Shown here piece after piece: positions 14,295 to 22,384 of a DNA stretch of 64,000 bases; positions within the stretch are counted from its first letter, which is position 1; each line of letters begins with the position of its first letter. This DNA comes from Legionella quinlivanii. GTDB lineage: Bacteria; Pseudomonadota; Gammaproteobacteria; Legionellales; Legionellaceae. The translations under genes and the position numbers were made by a program. The notes under the pieces are model-generated. The model did no database searches. It had not been told where the DNA came from and saw nothing but the letters and a program-made list of their open reading frames with translations. The stretch lies in contig NZ_UGOX01000001.1 in assembly GCF_900461555.1 (NCBI RefSeq), positions 633,501-697,500 of the forward strand. The letters are read 5' to 3'.

Positions 14295-15518
14295 ATGAAA
14301 GCTAAAATAAACAATACCCTTATAAAAAAGTTAATGCCAGCAGATAAGGAGTACGAGGTTCATGATATAGATTTGAAAGGATTTTTTATAAGAGTTTTCC
14401 CCACAGGAACAATGCGCTATGTCTGCCAGTATAAAAGAGGGAAAAAAATTAATATAGGTACAGTGGGGGTTATTTCAGCGCCTCAAGCCAGAGAAAAGGC
14501 AATTGAGGTATTAAGTAATTCAAACAAAGGCATTGAACCCACAGCCCGAAAGGGTGCTAATAAGGTTCATACATTAAAAGAGTTTATTGAAAATGAGTTT
14601 AAACCGTGGGCTCTAGCTCATCATAAGAGAGGACAAGAAACCATCGAAGCCCTTCATCGATGTTTTAATAAGCTATATTCAAAACCTCTTAGTGAAATTA
14701 CGCCTGCTTTAATGGAGCAATGGCGAGTCAAGCGGCTAAACGAGGGTACAGCCCAGGCAACCATAAATCGAAACATTACGACCCTTAAATCTGTGATCAC
14801 TAAGGCAACAGAATGGGGCTTTTTGAAAGAAAATCTATTACGAAACTTAAAGCAATTCAAAGTCGACCGCTCCCCAAAAGTAAGATATCTAACAGTAGAA
14901 GAAGAAACCCGGCTACGGCAGACTCTTCAAGGACGAGAAAACCAATTAAAGCAGAAGAGAGTAAGTGCTAATCAGTGGCGTAAGATTCGTGGATACAGCT
15001 TATACCCGGAATTAGAGGAGGGGGAATTCTTTGACCATTTAATGCCAATGGTACTTATTTCAATTAATACAGGCCTAAGACGTGGAGAGTTATTTAATCT
15101 AACATGGAACATGATAGACCTCTCTGCCAAATCGATTTTTATCGATGGTGGAATCACTAAAAACAGTAGTTCTCGTTTCATTCCATTGAATGAAGAAGCG
15201 TATCGTATTTTGAAACAGCTTCATCAAAAGAGAAGCGCTGAAAGTATACTGATTTTTCCCAGCAAGGGCGATCAGCCGTTTAATCACGTCAAACGGTCTT
15301 GGGCTTCACTTTTAGAGCAATCAAAAATTACACAATTTAGATGGCATGATTTACGTCATCACTTTGCCAGTAAATTGGTTATGGCTGGAGTTGATTTAAA
15401 TACTGTCAGAGAGTTGCTGGGTCATTCTGATATAAAAATGACATTAAGGTATGCTCATTTAGCGCCTGAGTATAAGATAAGTGCCGTAAATAAAATCAGC
15501 TGGACAAAATGTAATTAG
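14295..15518 (+). CDS. int: Tyrosine site-specific integrase
   Basis: 407 residues, typical for island integrases with an N-terminal arm-binding DUF4102-like region (KGFFIRVFPTGTMRYVCQYK), a SAM-like core-binding domain (~residues 95-190) and a C-terminal catalytic domain. Catalytic residues are visible: Arg in NTGLRRGEL, His and Arg in WHDLRHHFAS, then LGHSDIKMTLRYAHL with the second His and the nucleophile Tyr. It would recombine the 52-bp att cores in tRNA-Pro. It follows the HEPN gene with no gap and lies 1.1 kb from attL, so expression is probably shared with that gene. Confidence 0.95.
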   Translation: MKAKINNTLIKKLMPADKEYEVHDIDLKGFFIRVFPTGTMRYVCQYKRGKKINIGTVGVISAPQAREKAIEVLSNSNKGIEPTARKGANKVHTLKEFIENEFKPWALAHHKRGQETIEALHRCFNKLYSKPLSEITPALMEQWRVKRLNEGTAQATINRNITTLKSVITKATEWGFLKENLLRNLKQFKVDRSPKVRYLTVEEETRLRQTLQGRENQLKQKRVSANQWRKIRGYSLYPELEEGEFFDHLMPMVLISINTGLRRGELFNLTWNMIDLSAKSIFIDGGITKNSSSRFIPLNEEAYRILKQLHQKRSAESILIFPSKGDQPFNHVKRSWASLLEQSKITQFRWHDLRHHFASKLVMAGVDLNTVRELLGHSDIKMTLRYAHLAPEYKISAVNKISWTKCN

Positions 15519-16769: not shown

Positions 16770-17429
16770 TCAGCGTATAATTCTCCAACGATGCCAGATG
16801 ATAGGGGTTGCCGCTAATATTCTTTTTGTAAAAATAACTGGTTCCTCAGCTGCAGTTTGAGCATTTAAACAAACCAATGCGAAACCGCTATTTCTTTTCA
16901 CTAGGCGTCTAAAATAAGTACCCTCACTGATCTCTATGATACAATCGTTGCCTAGGCATTTCTCAATATCCACTGCATTTAGGTATTTGATACCTCCGAC
17001 AAAGTCTCCCTTTGAATAACTGGGTTCCATTGTGTCGTCCGAAATCATTACAACGAGAGCATTTGGATTGTTTGACTTAAAGAATTCAATTTCTCTCTGA
17101 ATGGCGTTTTCTTGGCTAAGAAGTGGAGCTATATCTTTATCTAGTGCTGGGAAAGGTACAAAATCTGTATTCAAGAGGCTGGGGCTTTTGCCTGAACCGT
17201 TGAGAAGCCATTGCATAGAGCAGCTTACGCCAGCGCTATGTAATATCTCTACAAGCTTGGATGCTGTTTTTTCATTTAGAGGGTTTCTGCCTAACTCCCA
17301 TGATTGGAGAGTATGCATACTAATTCCAAATTTCTCTTCCAAATCTTTGCGAGATATACCTGCCAAACTCCTAGCGGTTTTAATACGCCGGCCGGCATTT
17401 ATACGTTGATCATCTGTATTTTCATTCAT
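16770..17429 (-). CDS. lvrR: XRE/S24-type repressor, LvrR-like
   Basis: 219 residues. Residues ~12-65 are an HTH domain (ARSLAGISRKDLEEKFGISM). The C-terminal half is LexA/CI-like but altered: the nucleophile motif SMEP reads T133-MEP and the usual VKRL reads FRRL, so the Ser-Lys dyad is Thr-Arg. Self-cleavage as in LexA is therefore doubtful. It is divergent from lvrA, as in Legionella elements where lvrR regulates excision together with lvrABC. The shared intergenic region holds several palindromes that it probably binds. Confidence 0.8.
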   Translation of the reverse strand: MNENTDDQRINAGRRIKTARSLAGISRKDLEEKFGISMHTLQSWELGRNPLNEKTASKLVEILHSAGVSCSMQWLLNGSGKSPSLLNTDFVPFPALDKDIAPLLSQENAIQREIEFFKSNNPNALVVMISDDTMEPSYSKGDFVGGIKYLNAVDIEKCLGNDCIIEISEGTYFRRLVKRNSGFALVCLNAQTAAEEPVIFTKRILAATPIIWHRWRIIR

Positions 17430-17688: not shown

Positions 17689-18576
17689 ATGGATTTTTTT
17701 ATTAATAAATATGAACTTGCGGGTCTTAATGGCTTACAGCACGTTCAACAATTGGCTTACTTAATAGGAATACGTCCTTATATGGATATAAATACACGTA
17801 TAGTTGGTATAAAACGGAAGATCAGCCATCAATCCATTGCTGAAGCCCTATATATCGAACCACACCCCGGCATACAAAGTGGAATCCTAAGCAGAGATCA
17901 GATCCGCCGAGCCATTAAAGGATTGGAAAAGGCTGGTTTAGTTGAAAATCAAAGTACTGAGCATGCGCTTATTTTAAAGTGCTTATTAGCGAGTGAGCGT
18001 TTTTCTGCCCAAAATAAAGCCGCCATCAAGGCGCCACACCATACCGCCATTGTGGATAACTCAGATAGACCAGGCGGGGCAAGGGCTTTCGATACAAATA
18101 ATCAGCAAGCCACCATAGGCAAACAGGCGGAATCCGCCATACCTCATAATAGTAATAATAATTATTTATTTTTTTTATATAAACAATTCGAGCAATTTTG
18201 GTCGGTGTATCCGGTCAAGCGCTCCCAGCCTCAAGCTTGGCAAGCATTCCAAGAATTAAACCCCTCAGCAGAACTGTTTCAGCGAATGATAAACGCTTTG
18301 CAAAAACAAATCGCTTACCACGACCAACAAACCGCATTTAATCACTGGATGCCCAACTGGAAGAATGCCGGCAACTGGATAGCTCAGCAATGCTGGAACG
18401 ATGAATTACCGATTCAACACAAAAAGGACGAACACCATGCAACACATCAAAAACCTGCTTCAGCAGCCGGAAGCTACGATCCGCTTTGGGCAACCTGCAA
18501 GAGGCGAAATGAAACCAAAGCCGAAGAGCCCTCCAACGTCATCGCCTTCCCAAGAGCCTCCAGCGGAACACATTGA
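17689..18576 (+). CDS. lvrA: LvrA, winged-helix regulator of the Lvh region
   Basis: 295 residues. The N-terminal ~95 residues look like a winged helix (ISHQSIAEALYIEPHPGI, then DQIRRAIKGLEKAGLVE). The C-terminal part has FWSVYPVKRSQPQAWQAFQE and FNHWMPNWKNAGNWI, similar to the tails of phage replication/primosome proteins. It opens the lvr-lvh operon and is divergent from lvrR. In Legionella the lvrA-C block regulates element excision and transfer. The last ~140 nt overlap lvrB in another frame. Confidence 0.75.
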   Translation: MDFFINKYELAGLNGLQHVQQLAYLIGIRPYMDINTRIVGIKRKISHQSIAEALYIEPHPGIQSGILSRDQIRRAIKGLEKAGLVENQSTEHALILKCLLASERFSAQNKAAIKAPHHTAIVDNSDRPGGARAFDTNNQQATIGKQAESAIPHNSNNNYLFFLYKQFEQFWSVYPVKRSQPQAWQAFQELNPSAELFQRMINALQKQIAYHDQQTAFNHWMPNWKNAGNWIAQQCWNDELPIQHKKDEHHATHQKPASAAGSYDPLWATCKRRNETKAEEPSNVIAFPRASSGTH

Positions 18577-18913
18577 TGATTTATTTTTGAAATTTGCGTC
18601 TTATTACGGCGCGATATGGCGTGCACACATGAAGGAAGAGAGGTTTATCGTGTTTATGAAAAACGAGTGGCAAATCAGTTTGAAGGAGTTTACACCGGCA
18701 ATTATTCAGGAGGCGACCGATCATTGCTTGAAACGCAAGCAACTACCGCCAACCTTGCCGCAATTTTACGACCTGTGCCGAACCTTACACATTCGGGAAA
18801 AAGAGCAGGAAGCATTAAATAACAGAGCACCGAATGATCGAGCAACGCCTGCCTCACTGGAAGTCGGACGCAGGTACTTAAAACTAATCAAACAAATGTT
18901 AAACAGCAACTAA
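18437..18913 (+). CDS. lvrB: LvrB
   Basis: 158 residues from the ATG at 18437, which has AAGGAC 10 nt upstream. An ATG at 18401 in the same frame has no such site. The N-terminal ~45 residues are disordered and proline-rich (PKPKSPPTSSPSQEPPAEH). The rest is helical with FIVFMKNEWQISLKEF and a conserved-looking LPPTLPQFYDLCR, resembling the tails of phage replication proteins. It overlaps the lvrA end by 140 nt and ends 11 nt before lvrC. Function is not known precisely; it is part of the regulatory block. Confidence 0.7.
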   Translation: MQHIKNLLQQPEATIRFGQPARGEMKPKPKSPPTSSPSQEPPAEHIDDLFLKFASYYGAIWRAHMKEERFIVFMKNEWQISLKEFTPAIIQEATDHCLKRKQLPPTLPQFYDLCRTLHIREKEQEALNNRAPNDRATPASLEVGRRYLKLIKQMLNSN

Positions 18914-18924
18914 GGGAGAACACC

Positions 18925-19320
18925 ATGCTGATTTTGGGAAGACGAGAAGGCGAATTGATTCTGATTGACAAGGGGCAAATCCAAGTGAAGGTGTTGCATC
19001 TCGATAGCGACTTGATTCACTTAGGGTTCAAATCCTCAGTGCGCATCGATATCGATACGCCGGCTGAGGGCATTCAGTACCTTAGCGCCAATTGCATGAT
19101 GGTGTTGCAATGCCATCTAGGCGACAAATTGTTTCTGAATGAGGGTGAGATTCAGGTGAAATGTTTGGCAGCCCATCACGGCATGCTGTATTTGGGCATT
19201 CAAGCGCCGTTGCATATTGATGTCGACCGTCAGGAGATTTTTGCGCGCAAGAATGCAACTGCTAATTCAAGTGAGAAAGCCTGCAATGACGTTTACTTCA
19301 AACAGCCCAAGATTCGCTAA
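18925..19320 (+). CDS. lvrC: LvrC, tandem CsrA-like RNA-binding protein
   Basis: 131 residues, twice the usual CsrA length, with two CsrA-like units (about 1-50 and 58-109). Unit 1 has the classic start LILGRREGE (L4, R6, R7) but lacks the C-terminal Arg (IDIDT45 in place of AVHR44). Unit 2 has lost the N-terminal Arg pair (LQCHLGD) but keeps R102 in VDRQEIF. CsrA binds GGA motifs in mRNA through a surface made of strand 1 of one chain and strand 5 of the other. AAGGGAG precedes the ATG. The ICE-borne CsrA-like proteins of Legionella are known to regulate element genes. The fold of the fused form is inference. Confidence 0.85.
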   Translation: MLILGRREGELILIDKGQIQVKVLHLDSDLIHLGFKSSVRIDIDTPAEGIQYLSANCMMVLQCHLGDKLFLNEGEIQVKCLAAHHGMLYLGIQAPLHIDVDRQEIFARKNATANSSEKACNDVYFKQPKIR

Positions 19321-19327
19321 GGAGAGC

Positions 19328-19624
19328 ATGATGCGCAAACTTCATCGCTTTAAGCAACTCGCAAAAGCGAGATACCTGGCTCTGTGCAGTGCCTTATTAC
19401 CTGTTCCCTGTTTTGCCAAATCGATTGAGACGGTGATTAATGGGGCAGTGAACTACCTGCAAGGCGACTTGGTGCGCTCGGTCGCTGTGGCGATTATCGT
19501 CACCTTGGGTTACATGTGTTTTAAATTGCAGAAATTCCCCAAAGAGTATTTTGTGTACTTTTTAGTCGGGCTAGGCCTCGTGTTTGGTGCCAGTGAAATT
19601 TACGGCGTCGTGGAGAGGGGATAA
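19328..19624 (+). CDS. lvhB2: LvhB2, VirB2-type pilin
   Basis: 98 residues, the size of VirB2 pro-pilins. A long signal sequence (SALLPVPCFAKS, with cleavage after the Ala of CFA) is followed by two hydrophobic helices (VRSVAVAIIVTLGYMCF and YFVYFLVGLGLVFGASEIYG). It would be processed and assembled into the T-pilus. An ATG at 19331 has better spacing (6 nt) from GGAG at 19321-19324, so the start may be one codon later. The stop overlaps the lvhB3 start (TAATG). Confidence 0.85.
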   Translation: MMRKLHRFKQLAKARYLALCSALLPVPCFAKSIETVINGAVNYLQGDLVRSVAVAIIVTLGYMCFKLQKFPKEYFVYFLVGLGLVFGASEIYGVVERG

Positions 19625-19917
19625 TGCCTGATAATCACTTGCACAGTAATCCCATCTTTGGCGCACTGACCCGCCCGGCCATGACCGGCGGGGTCACGCT
19701 TGAGTTTCACGTGATGAACTTAATTGTGTCGATGGCGGCATTCATTGGCTTGGGCAGCATGCTGTACGGCCTTATTTTCCTACCGATTCACGCCTGTGGC
19801 TGGCTTGCCTGTAAACACGATACGGCCTTGCTCACCATCTTAAGCAAACGCTTATTCAAGCTGCCTAATCTGCCTAATTCATCCTTCTGGGGAGTCCGCG
19901 CCTATGAGCCTTTCTAA
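19624..19917 (+). CDS. lvhB3: LvhB3, VirB3-type inner-membrane protein
   Basis: 97 residues with the VirB3 pattern: a short N-terminus with NPIFGALTRPAM (the family's RP motif), then one long hydrophobic segment (VMNLIVSMAAFIGLGSMLYG) and a second (LIFLPIHACGWLA). VirB3 works with VirB4 at the inner membrane in pilus assembly. It overlaps both neighbours (1 nt with lvhB2, 14 nt with lvhB4), showing tight coupling. Confidence 0.88.
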   Translation: MPDNHLHSNPIFGALTRPAMTGGVTLEFHVMNLIVSMAAFIGLGSMLYGLIFLPIHACGWLACKHDTALLTILSKRLFKLPNLPNSSFWGVRAYEPF

Positions 19918-22384
19918 GATGAGGCAGCGCCTGCAACAGGAAACCGGAATCAGCAGCTTGTTTCCGGTCACACACCTTAATTCAGCGAGTCTATTTGAAA
20001 CCAAAGACGGCTTAATCGGTGCAACCTTGCAAGTCGAAGGCATTTCCTTTGTCATGGCAGAACCAGAGTATTTAAACGAGATGTCATATCGCTTGCATCA
20101 AGCGCTTTTACATCTCGATGAGCGATTCATGGCCTACGTGACCATTCACCGCCATAAAGAAGACATTCGCTTAAAGGGTGAGTTTAAATCGCCGTTTGCC
20201 AAGCGGGTCAACGACAAATACCACGCCCGTTTTCAAGGCAAAAGCCTGTACCGCAATGCAATTTATATCACCGTGGTACTCAAGGGCGATAATTCCAGCA
20301 AAGCCGCACGAACGTTAAGCTGGTCGAATAAAGTCAGCGCGTCTAAGCACATTGACGCACGGCAACAGCAGCGAGAAGCGCAAATCGCCTTGCTACTTGG
20401 AAAAATGGAGCAGCTTAAAACCTCCTTATCTCCCTTTAAACCGCATTTACTAGGCGAGCATGACCGAGAAAAAGGCTATAGCGAACTGCTGGCCTTCCTC
20501 TCCTTAATTCCTAATGCGGGCGAGCGCTTACCCTTTACCCAACCTCAATTTAACGCCATGACCGGTAAAGGCTTGCTGGACACTTTAAAAGCCAATGCCA
20601 AATACCCGGAAGGCAATCTCAGCCAGTACGTGACCAACAAACAGTTATTCTTCGGTCAATCGATTCAGTTTCAAGGGGCAGTCAATACCAGCTTTGCAGC
20701 CATGCTTTCGATTAAAAAATACGGGCAAGAAACCAAGGCCCTGATTCTCGATAAACTGTTAGAACTGGATTCCGAATACATCTTAACCCATAGCTTCGCA
20801 CCGGTTCCGCGCGAAGTGGCACTGGATTTAGTGGATAAGAAACGAGGCAATTTATTGAATGCCAAGGATTTAGGCGCGAGCCAAATCCAGCAGTTAAGTG
20901 CTTTAGAAGATGGGCTCGCCAGTGAAGTAGCGCGCTTAGGCTTTCATCACAATAGCTTAATGCTCATATCCCCGGACAAAAGCCAATTAGAGAATGCCAT
21001 TCGCGAAGCAGTCAAAGCCTATGCGGGAGCGGGTATTGTTTTAGTGCGCGAGAACATCGGCCAGGAACTGGCTTACTGGGCGCAAATTCCCGGCAATCAC
21101 GCCTTTATTGCACGGGCAAGTTTAATTACCTCGCATAACTTTGTCGATTTTTGCTCACTCCATAATTTCGATACGGGTTTTCGTAACGGCAATCACTTGG
21201 GCGAAGCCGTTACTTTATTAGAAACGCCCTCAAAAACCCCGGTCTTTTTTAACTATCACAGCCAATCGTCTAAAACGAACCCCGCCAAAGGACATACGGC
21301 TATCTTTGCAGCGACCAATGCCGGGAAGAATACACTGGTGTCGTTCCTTGATGCGCAAATGGGACGCTACGACAACCGCAGCTTTTTCTTTGACCGTGAT
21401 GAAGCCTCCAAGATTTATGTATTGAGTGCTCCCAATAGCAGCTATACAGTGATTTCACCAAAGCATGCTGCCCGTATCGCCATGAATCCCTTCATGCTTC
21501 CCGATACGCCTCACAATCGAAGCTTTGTCAAAGACTGGTTCGCAGAGCTCATTAAACAACCCAATGAAAGCGATTTATCTAGCAGTATTCGCGAAACCAT
21601 TAACGAATGTGTGAATTATGCTTTTGACCATTTAGAGCGCCGATACCGCAACTTAAGCAATATTGCCCGATGCCTTCCGAAAGACTTTCCCCGTTGGCCG
21701 GAGTTAAAGCGCTGGCTTCGCGAAGATGAAACCAGAGAGGCTGGCGAGTATGCCTGGCTGTTTGACCATGACCATGACGCACTGGCGGTTGATTTGGATA
21801 AAGTGGGCTTTGATATCACCTATCTAATGGATGAAGTATCCCCCTTAATCTCAACGCCCGTTTACATGTACCTATTACATCGGGTACGCCTCTGCCTTGA
21901 TGGGCGTTTAACCTCCATCATTATTGATGAAGCCTGGCAGGTCTTTAATTCGCCATTCTGGCTGAAGCACTTGAAAGCATGGGCAGCGACTATTCGTAAG
22001 AAAAACGGCCATTTCGTGTTCATGACGCAAACGCCCGAATCTATTGTGCAGTCACCGATTGCCGCCGAAATCATTACCAATGTGGCGACCAGCATCTATT
22101 TCCCCAATCCGGCAGCGAATGAAGCAACCTATATCGGTGCTTTAGGCTTAACCCGTGGGGAGTATCAAACCATCAAATCCCTAACACCGGAATCAAGGCT
22201 ATTCCTCTACAAACAAGAGCGAAAGAGCATTCTTTGCCGGCTTGATTTAAGTGAACTACCCGAAGAAATTCGCGTCTTCTCGGGAAATGAAGCAACCGTG
22301 CGCCTGCTTGACAGCATCATCGATGAGGTAAGCGCCAATGCCGAAGACTGGTTGCCGGTATTCCTGCAAAGGAGTGGCGCATGA
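19904..22384 (+). CDS. lvhB4: LvhB4, VirB4-type ATPase
   Basis: 826 residues, full length for VirB4. The N-terminal half is the CagE/VirB4 N-domain; the C-terminal half is a RecA-like ATPase. Walker B is clear (SIIIDEAWQVF) and LVRENIGQELAYWAQIPGN is the family motif ahead of the ATPase. Walker A is unusual: residues 469-477 read AATNAGKNT, with Ala for the first Gly and Asn after the Lys, in place of GxxGxGKT. VirB4 drives pilus biogenesis and substrate transfer. Confidence 0.92.
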   Translation: MSLSKMRQRLQQETGISSLFPVTHLNSASLFETKDGLIGATLQVEGISFVMAEPEYLNEMSYRLHQALLHLDERFMAYVTIHRHKEDIRLKGEFKSPFAKRVNDKYHARFQGKSLYRNAIYITVVLKGDNSSKAARTLSWSNKVSASKHIDARQQQREAQIALLLGKMEQLKTSLSPFKPHLLGEHDREKGYSELLAFLSLIPNAGERLPFTQPQFNAMTGKGLLDTLKANAKYPEGNLSQYVTNKQLFFGQSIQFQGAVNTSFAAMLSIKKYGQETKALILDKLLELDSEYILTHSFAPVPREVALDLVDKKRGNLLNAKDLGASQIQQLSALEDGLASEVARLGFHHNSLMLISPDKSQLENAIREAVKAYAGAGIVLVRENIGQELAYWAQIPGNHAFIARASLITSHNFVDFCSLHNFDTGFRNGNHLGEAVTLLETPSKTPVFFNYHSQSSKTNPAKGHTAIFAATNAGKNTLVSFLDAQMGRYDNRSFFFDRDEASKIYVLSAPNSSYTVISPKHAARIAMNPFMLPDTPHNRSFVKDWFAELIKQPNESDLSSSIRETINECVNYAFDHLERRYRNLSNIARCLPKDFPRWPELKRWLREDETREAGEYAWLFDHDHDALAVDLDKVGFDITYLMDEVSPLISTPVYMYLLHRVRLCLDGRLTSIIIDEAWQVFNSPFWLKHLKAWAATIRKKNGHFVFMTQTPESIVQSPIAAEIITNVATSIYFPNPAANEATYIGALGLTRGEYQTIKSLTPESRLFLYKQERKSILCRLDLSELPEEIRVFSGNEATVRLLDSIIDEVSANAEDWLPVFLQRSGA

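Follow-up and report, generated by a model that had tools for sequence, protein, structure and literature searches.

A Tandem CsrA Protein Encoded by lvrC

The window analyzed here is a 64,000-nucleotide stretch of the Legionella quinlivanii genome (assembly GCF_900461555.1, contig NZ_UGOX01000001.1, positions 633,501 to 697,500), and its gene lvrC is the subject of this study. The lvrC open reading frame (ORF) lies on the forward strand at 18925–19320, starts with an ATG preceded by a Shine-Dalgarno-like AAGGGAG and encodes 131 amino acids. By the curated sequence cut-off LvrC is a member of the CsrA/RsmA family (Pfam CsrA, PF02599), whose profile matched it in two stretches (E 3.4e-17, 62.6 bits, cut-off 27). 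In a scan of the window's own genome each unit by itself scored above the CsrA cut-off (30.8 bits for unit 1 and 32.1 bits for unit 2), which bore out the proposal of an earlier, sequence-only reading of this DNA that two CsrA units sit in one chain. In this LvrC is unlike canonical homodimeric CsrA, whose chain of about 60 residues has one unit. LvrC has been described as a CsrA homolog and is thought to regulate its element or a type IV secretion system (T4SS) (PMC6597080, PMC3864950, PMC3218107, PMC4256840).

Unit 1 (residues 1–45, 18925–19059), which aligned ungapped with the single-unit profile, comprises CsrA strands 1–4 followed by a strand-5 sequence ending at T45; this and all other parts of lvrC given here are on the forward strand. 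Its strand 1 carries L4, R6 and R7 (codons of R6-R7 at 18940–18945), and T45-P46-A47 (19057–19065) replaces CsrA R44-E45-E46, in the numbering of Escherichia coli CsrA. The C-terminal helix of unit 1 is replaced by a 12-residue linker (residues 46–57, 19060–19095), delimited by the ungapped profile alignment and low in predicted local distance difference test score (pLDDT). Unit 2 begins at M58 and is a full CsrA unit including the C-terminal helix (residues 58–115, 19096–19269), based on Pfam, the own-genome scan and a structure model. In unit 2, C63-H64 (19111–19116) stands in place of the R6-R7 pair, and R102-Q103-E104 (19228–19236) are the equivalents of R44-E45-E46. Two residues past the R44 position, unit 1 has A47 and unit 2 has E104. 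A C-terminal tail follows (residues 116–131, 19270–19317; pLDDT below 50 for 115–129). The residues named in the sequence-only reading (L4/R6/R7, T45, C63/H64 and R102) were all found as claimed and under the same numbers.

Conservation of One Predicted RNA Face

In CsrA each RNA face combines strand 1 from one chain with strand 5 from its partner, the two running parallel, and an R44A substitution makes binding defective (PMC7652899). In RsmE, a single RNA contacts Arg6 from one chain together with Glu46 from its partner (PMC4005645). Arg8 and Glu64 of RsmN form a salt bridge that is inter-subunit in RsmA (PMC3791407), and by our own mapping these two residues correspond to R6 and E46. These published structures agree with the pairing of strands that the sequence-only reading had assumed. 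Since strand 1 lies beside strand 5 of the opposing chain, strand 1 of unit 1 and strand 5 of unit 2 would together make a complete face (R6, R7, R102, and E104), and the opposite face, of unit-2 strand 1 and unit-1 strand 5, would present C63, H64, T45, and A47 instead of R6, R7, R44, and the Glu. LvrC thus does not have R6 and R44 on each of two equivalent faces, as canonical CsrA has, for one face has C63 and T45; that C63 and A47 both depart from the canonical residues is as expected of a pseudo-dimer.

To place these residues among relatives, ORFs of the fetched loci, with viral loci L060–L139 omitted, were scanned with a profile built from ten single-unit LvrC rows (A2), and 123 matched. 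Removal of twelve repeat loci left 105 single-unit rows, 92 of them distinct, and removal of the 10 distinct rows of L048–L058, which come from other families in the class or from viral contigs, left 82 distinct single-unit homologs. These include the canonical CsrA rows L001, L002, and L003 and three second csrA genes; 77–82 rows were scorable, depending on the column. The R6 position is R in all 81 scorable homologs, the L4 position is L in 79 of the 81 with a letter there, and the R7 position is R or K in 78/81. At the R44 position 81/82 have R, and two residues past it the same number have E. The rows with an incomplete set were L019 (without R44 and the Glu), L180, L181, and L199 (R7), and L003 (no strand-1 letters). 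Scored by profile, strand 1 reached 16.5 bits in LvrC unit 1 and −2.4 in unit 2 (minimum 15.3 and median 25.2 in 80 single units), and strand 5 gave −4.1 in unit 1 and 28.9 in unit 2 (minimum 13.2 and median 28.7 in 82 single units). The three homologs L180, L181, and L199 form a single-unit LvrC subgroup with T or A at R7 and without G9, and L003 is a short CsrA homolog of the window's own genome without a recognizable strand-1 signature.

We consider it probable that the two CsrA units of LvrC form a self-contained pseudo-dimer within one chain, which has a single RNA face and is incapable of bridging two GGA sites.

Tandem LvrC Proteins in Other Legionellaceae

Matches to LvrC were found in 80 of 143 genomes of the family, and four of the 143 hold five intact tandems: one in the window's own genome, two (with a truncated one) in genome G108, and one each in G016 (locus L014) and G128 (locus L017). 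An ORF scan of the fetched loci, outside which some of the family-genome matches lay, gave no further two-unit ORF. In L014, strand 4 of unit 1 runs nearly straight into unit 2 and strand 5 of unit 1 is missing; its unit 2 retains R6, R7, and R44. In L017, unit 1 retains L4, R6, and K7 and unit 2 retains R44, with a unit-2 strand 1 that scores −5.4 bits and a unit-1 strand 5 that scores −10.0, or −3.8 with one residue taken as an insertion, which puts an Arg at R44. Read from these alignments, the key residues of the same face survive in all three tandem lineages, and the other face appears damaged in each: the window protein is hit on both sides, L014 on its unit-1 side, and L017 on its unit-2 side and perhaps on the unit-1 side as well. 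The comparison of relatives proposed earlier therefore extends what had been an observation on one protein, and the prediction of one complete and one impaired face agrees with the 82-homolog comparison and with all three lineages. The weight of the agreement comes from the near-invariance of these residues in other homologs.

The tandem versions of LvrC are apparently independent, as judged from trees of neighboring proteins. A tree of LvrB (88 distinct rows) has three tandem changes, at least two of them forced by well-supported branches, and a tree of LvrA and LvrB together, for the 37 rows with enough fetched flank, has three forced changes and rejects a single tandem clade in the approximately unbiased (AU) test (p-AU 2.24e-05). 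In the LvrB test the p-AU values for joining the window lineage with L040 and with L041 were 0.077 and 0.418. The settings also differ: L014 and L017 sit upstream of PFGI-1-class element genes (TIGR03748, TIGR03752), and the window lvrC lies upstream of a VirB-type T4SS.

Beyond the family, the searches for tandems covered the class and the phylum and favored relatives of the LvrC family, so that an unrelated tandem CsrA could escape them. Among the matches listed for 369 sampled class genomes with profile A1, the only full-length one was in the window's own genome, which was also the sole genome matched among 398 sampled from the phylum with L014 as the query at E 1e-10. One plasmid record was matched by the window protein and 50 by L014, in no case over a stretch that spans 80% of the query, and the two phage records matched by L014 were likewise partial. 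The viral contigs held no LvrC relative, none with L021 as the query, and two single-unit loci with profile A2; with the genome's canonical CsrA as the query, the best 80 of 230 relatives were kept, without a scan for tandems. The literature searched, which did not include the csrT and csrR papers where one may be in print, yielded no account of a natural tandem CsrA.

In loci L013, L015, and L019 a second, separate csrA gene lies directly 3' of lvrC. The first gene of L019 is without R44 and the next Glu (VDGKQ), and its second gene has the full set, which is reminiscent of the one-faced design spread over two chains; a two-gene version may exist.

One way to read the fusion is that it was selected to block exchange of subunits with host CsrA, with the loss of a face being a neutral by-product of the adjoining linker. 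In its favor, two-hybrid testing has the plasmid protein RsmQ forming heterodimers with the Rsm proteins of its host (PMC9928087), the window's own genome carries three further CsrA homologs, and the linker-joined face is the lost face in three lineages. However, most other LvrB-linked loci examined have single units: LvrB lies upstream of 97 of 111 CsrA-like ORFs, a count in which a few loci were fetched twice, and six of the 97 are tandem or truncated tandem and three are second ORFs of one locus. As to the by-product, the window protein keeps the strand sequences IDID and MMVL, yet its RNA-contacting residues are replaced, which looks more specific than drift. We regard this explanation as doubtful.

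Selection on LvrC in L. quinlivanii

The window lvrC and two intact L. quinlivanii copies (L006 and L007) differ by 0.31–0.49 synonymous (dS) and 0.03–0.05 nonsynonymous (dN) substitutions per site. Among the three, dN/dS is 0.067–0.105 and the face pattern is retained, the amino-acid changes sparing all named residues of both faces; C63-H64 is identical in both copies. Pseudogene status or drift of lvrC was considered and is ruled out by dN/dS. A third L. quinlivanii lvr locus, L008, has an lvrC that stops within unit 1 (L008:4021–4200), after which the sequence resembles, by eye, a later portion of a VirD4-like coupling gene; the locus looks like a remnant of an element.

These ratios bear on the suggestion that LvrC binds no RNA and works through proteins, or is decaying. 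The loss of the contact residues of one face fits with it, but the low dN/dS and the persistence of the kept-face key residues in three tandem lineages make it very improbable.

Residues 57–85 (19093–19179) form a Cys/His-rich stretch (C57, C63, H64, C80, H84, and H85), unchanged in the three copies, which is a possible metal or redox site. The second face could accordingly have been reused, these six residues making up a surface for metal binding, redox sensing or protein contact through which the RNA-binding face is controlled. Purifying selection on unit 2 (dN/dS 0.042–0.080) and the identity of the six residues in three close copies are consistent with this. Three copies are a thin sample, though, and the distant tandems L014 and L017 are without such a Cys/His set in unit 2, so that we think reuse unlikely.

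Structure Model and Points against a Single RNA Face

The model of LvrC was of moderate quality, with a predicted template modeling score (pTM) of 0.68 for the two units in one chain. Unit 2 overlays CsrA (2bti) at 0.9 Å over 58 residues, which partly shows that it folds as a CsrA protomer. The linker has low pLDDT, under 50 at residues 52–55. The sole helix, at 103–115, follows unit 2; none occurs before residue 103, and the model is thus without the helix between strands 2 and 3 that characterizes RsmN/RsmF. A fold search with the whole model gave no specific match over its whole length.

Several points weigh against LvrC being a one-faced pseudo-dimer that arose repeatedly. The structure prediction proposed earlier as a check held for unit 2 but supports unit 1 weakly, with strand 5 of unit 1 off its aligned position. 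Three lineages agreeing in direction are weak statistics alone, as this would happen by chance one time in four. With LvrB alone, a single tandem clade was not rejected (p-AU 0.051). Independence is further qualified by long branches (L040, L041) and by possible separate movement of lvrC, and the three changes could also be one gain followed by losses.

Proposed Mode of Action

We propose that unit 1, lacking a C-terminal helix and tied by the 12-residue linker to the full-length unit 2, would interlock with it in the manner of two CsrA chains. The intact face (L4, R6, and R7 with R102, E104 and the unit-2 helix) would then bind one ANGGA site, for which a candidate is a Shine-Dalgarno site among the transfer genes of the element itself, and the opposite face (C63 and H64 with T45 and A47) would make no RNA contacts. 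Being a one-faced single chain, LvrC would be a monovalent CsrA: it would not bridge a pair of sites within a transcript, its avidity for multi-GGA sponge RNAs would be weaker, and it would exchange no subunits with host CsrA. The strands of the lost face would be parallel neighbors joined by the linker, so that the linker would run back beside that face, and this topology probably explains why the face beside the linker is the one lost each time.

Both CsrA pockets are needed for full repression of glgC, and one known target has a single site (PMC7652899). The need for both faces has so far been probed with laboratory mixed dimers; if our proposal is correct, a natural one-faced CsrA with apparently independent parallels would open the value of bivalency to comparative study, and would show how a mobile element can keep a host-type regulator apart from the host network. 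More tentatively, we speculate that Legionellaceae integrative elements evolved a monovalent CsrA three times, with no bridging, no mixing with host chains and a poor hold on sponge RNAs, which would leave their transfer genes on a private signal.

Comparison with Known CsrA Proteins

The tandem lvrC sits directly after lvrB, like the genes of the single-unit LvrC/CsrT proteins of Legionella integrative elements. The strand 1 of those proteins resembles that of the tandem unit 1, and their strand 5 (IDVDR) resembles that of unit 2; they hold both elements in one unit, whereas tandem LvrC splits them over two.

The same layout is that of the engineered Re-CsrA, in which CsrA residues 1–44, a ten-residue linker and full CsrA form one chain that binds CesT and RNA (PMC5864733; PDB 5z38, whose chains are labeled 'Truncated-CsrA' and 'wild type CsrA'). 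LvrC shares its helix-less unit 1, short linker and full unit 2. However, Re-CsrA was designed from E. coli CsrA and has R44 in both units, whereas LvrC is natural, has twelve residues in its linker and carries damage on its second face. This protein also bears on whether two LvrC chains might swap units, giving a two-chain particle that has two complete faces and could retain the bridging of two GGA sites. Domain swapping occurs between CsrA chains (PMC7652899), and a complete face would also result if unit 1 came from one chain and unit 2 from another. Such swapping seems quite improbable, since a linker of ten residues is enough in Re-CsrA and LvrC has twelve, and since each site in the Re-CsrA/CesT complex is consistent with a single Re-CsrA of about 12.5 kDa (PMC5864733).

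Other systems resemble the one-faced LvrC pseudo-dimer in part. The R44A/wild-type mixed dimers of Mercante 2009 have one complete and one damaged face (PMC7652899), but consist of two chains, and LvrC would be one natural chain with the damaged face altered on both sides. Pseudomonas aeruginosa RsmN/RsmF likewise supplies a whole RNA face from one chain, but achieves this through an inserted helix and nevertheless dimerizes to two faces (PMC3791407). RsmQ is also a CsrA homolog on a conjugative element; unlike what we propose for LvrC, it forms homodimers as well as heterodimers with host Rsm proteins (PMC9928087).

Genomic Setting

Upstream of lvrC on the forward strand are a tyrosine integrase (14295–15518), lvrA (17689–18576), and lvrB (18401–18913), the last directly 5' of lvrC; a gene for a helix-turn-helix and S24-like repressor, probably lvrR, is on the reverse strand (16770–17429). 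The lvr names follow synteny in PMC3864950. On the 3' side, virB2 (start picked by eye), virB3, and virB4 (19330–22384, forward strand) begin a VirB-type T4SS operon. With lvrB upstream, VirB genes downstream and an integrase close by, gene content matches the LvrC/CsrT setting and places LvrC in a probable conjugative/integrative element of the Legionella genome.

No ANGGA precedes lvrC of L041. One copy of ANGGA at −12 precedes lvrC in the window, L006, L007, and L040; as this overlaps the Shine-Dalgarno site, it says little on RNA targets. One of the further CsrA homologs of the genome (L002) is carried on a second contig of 104 kb (C2).
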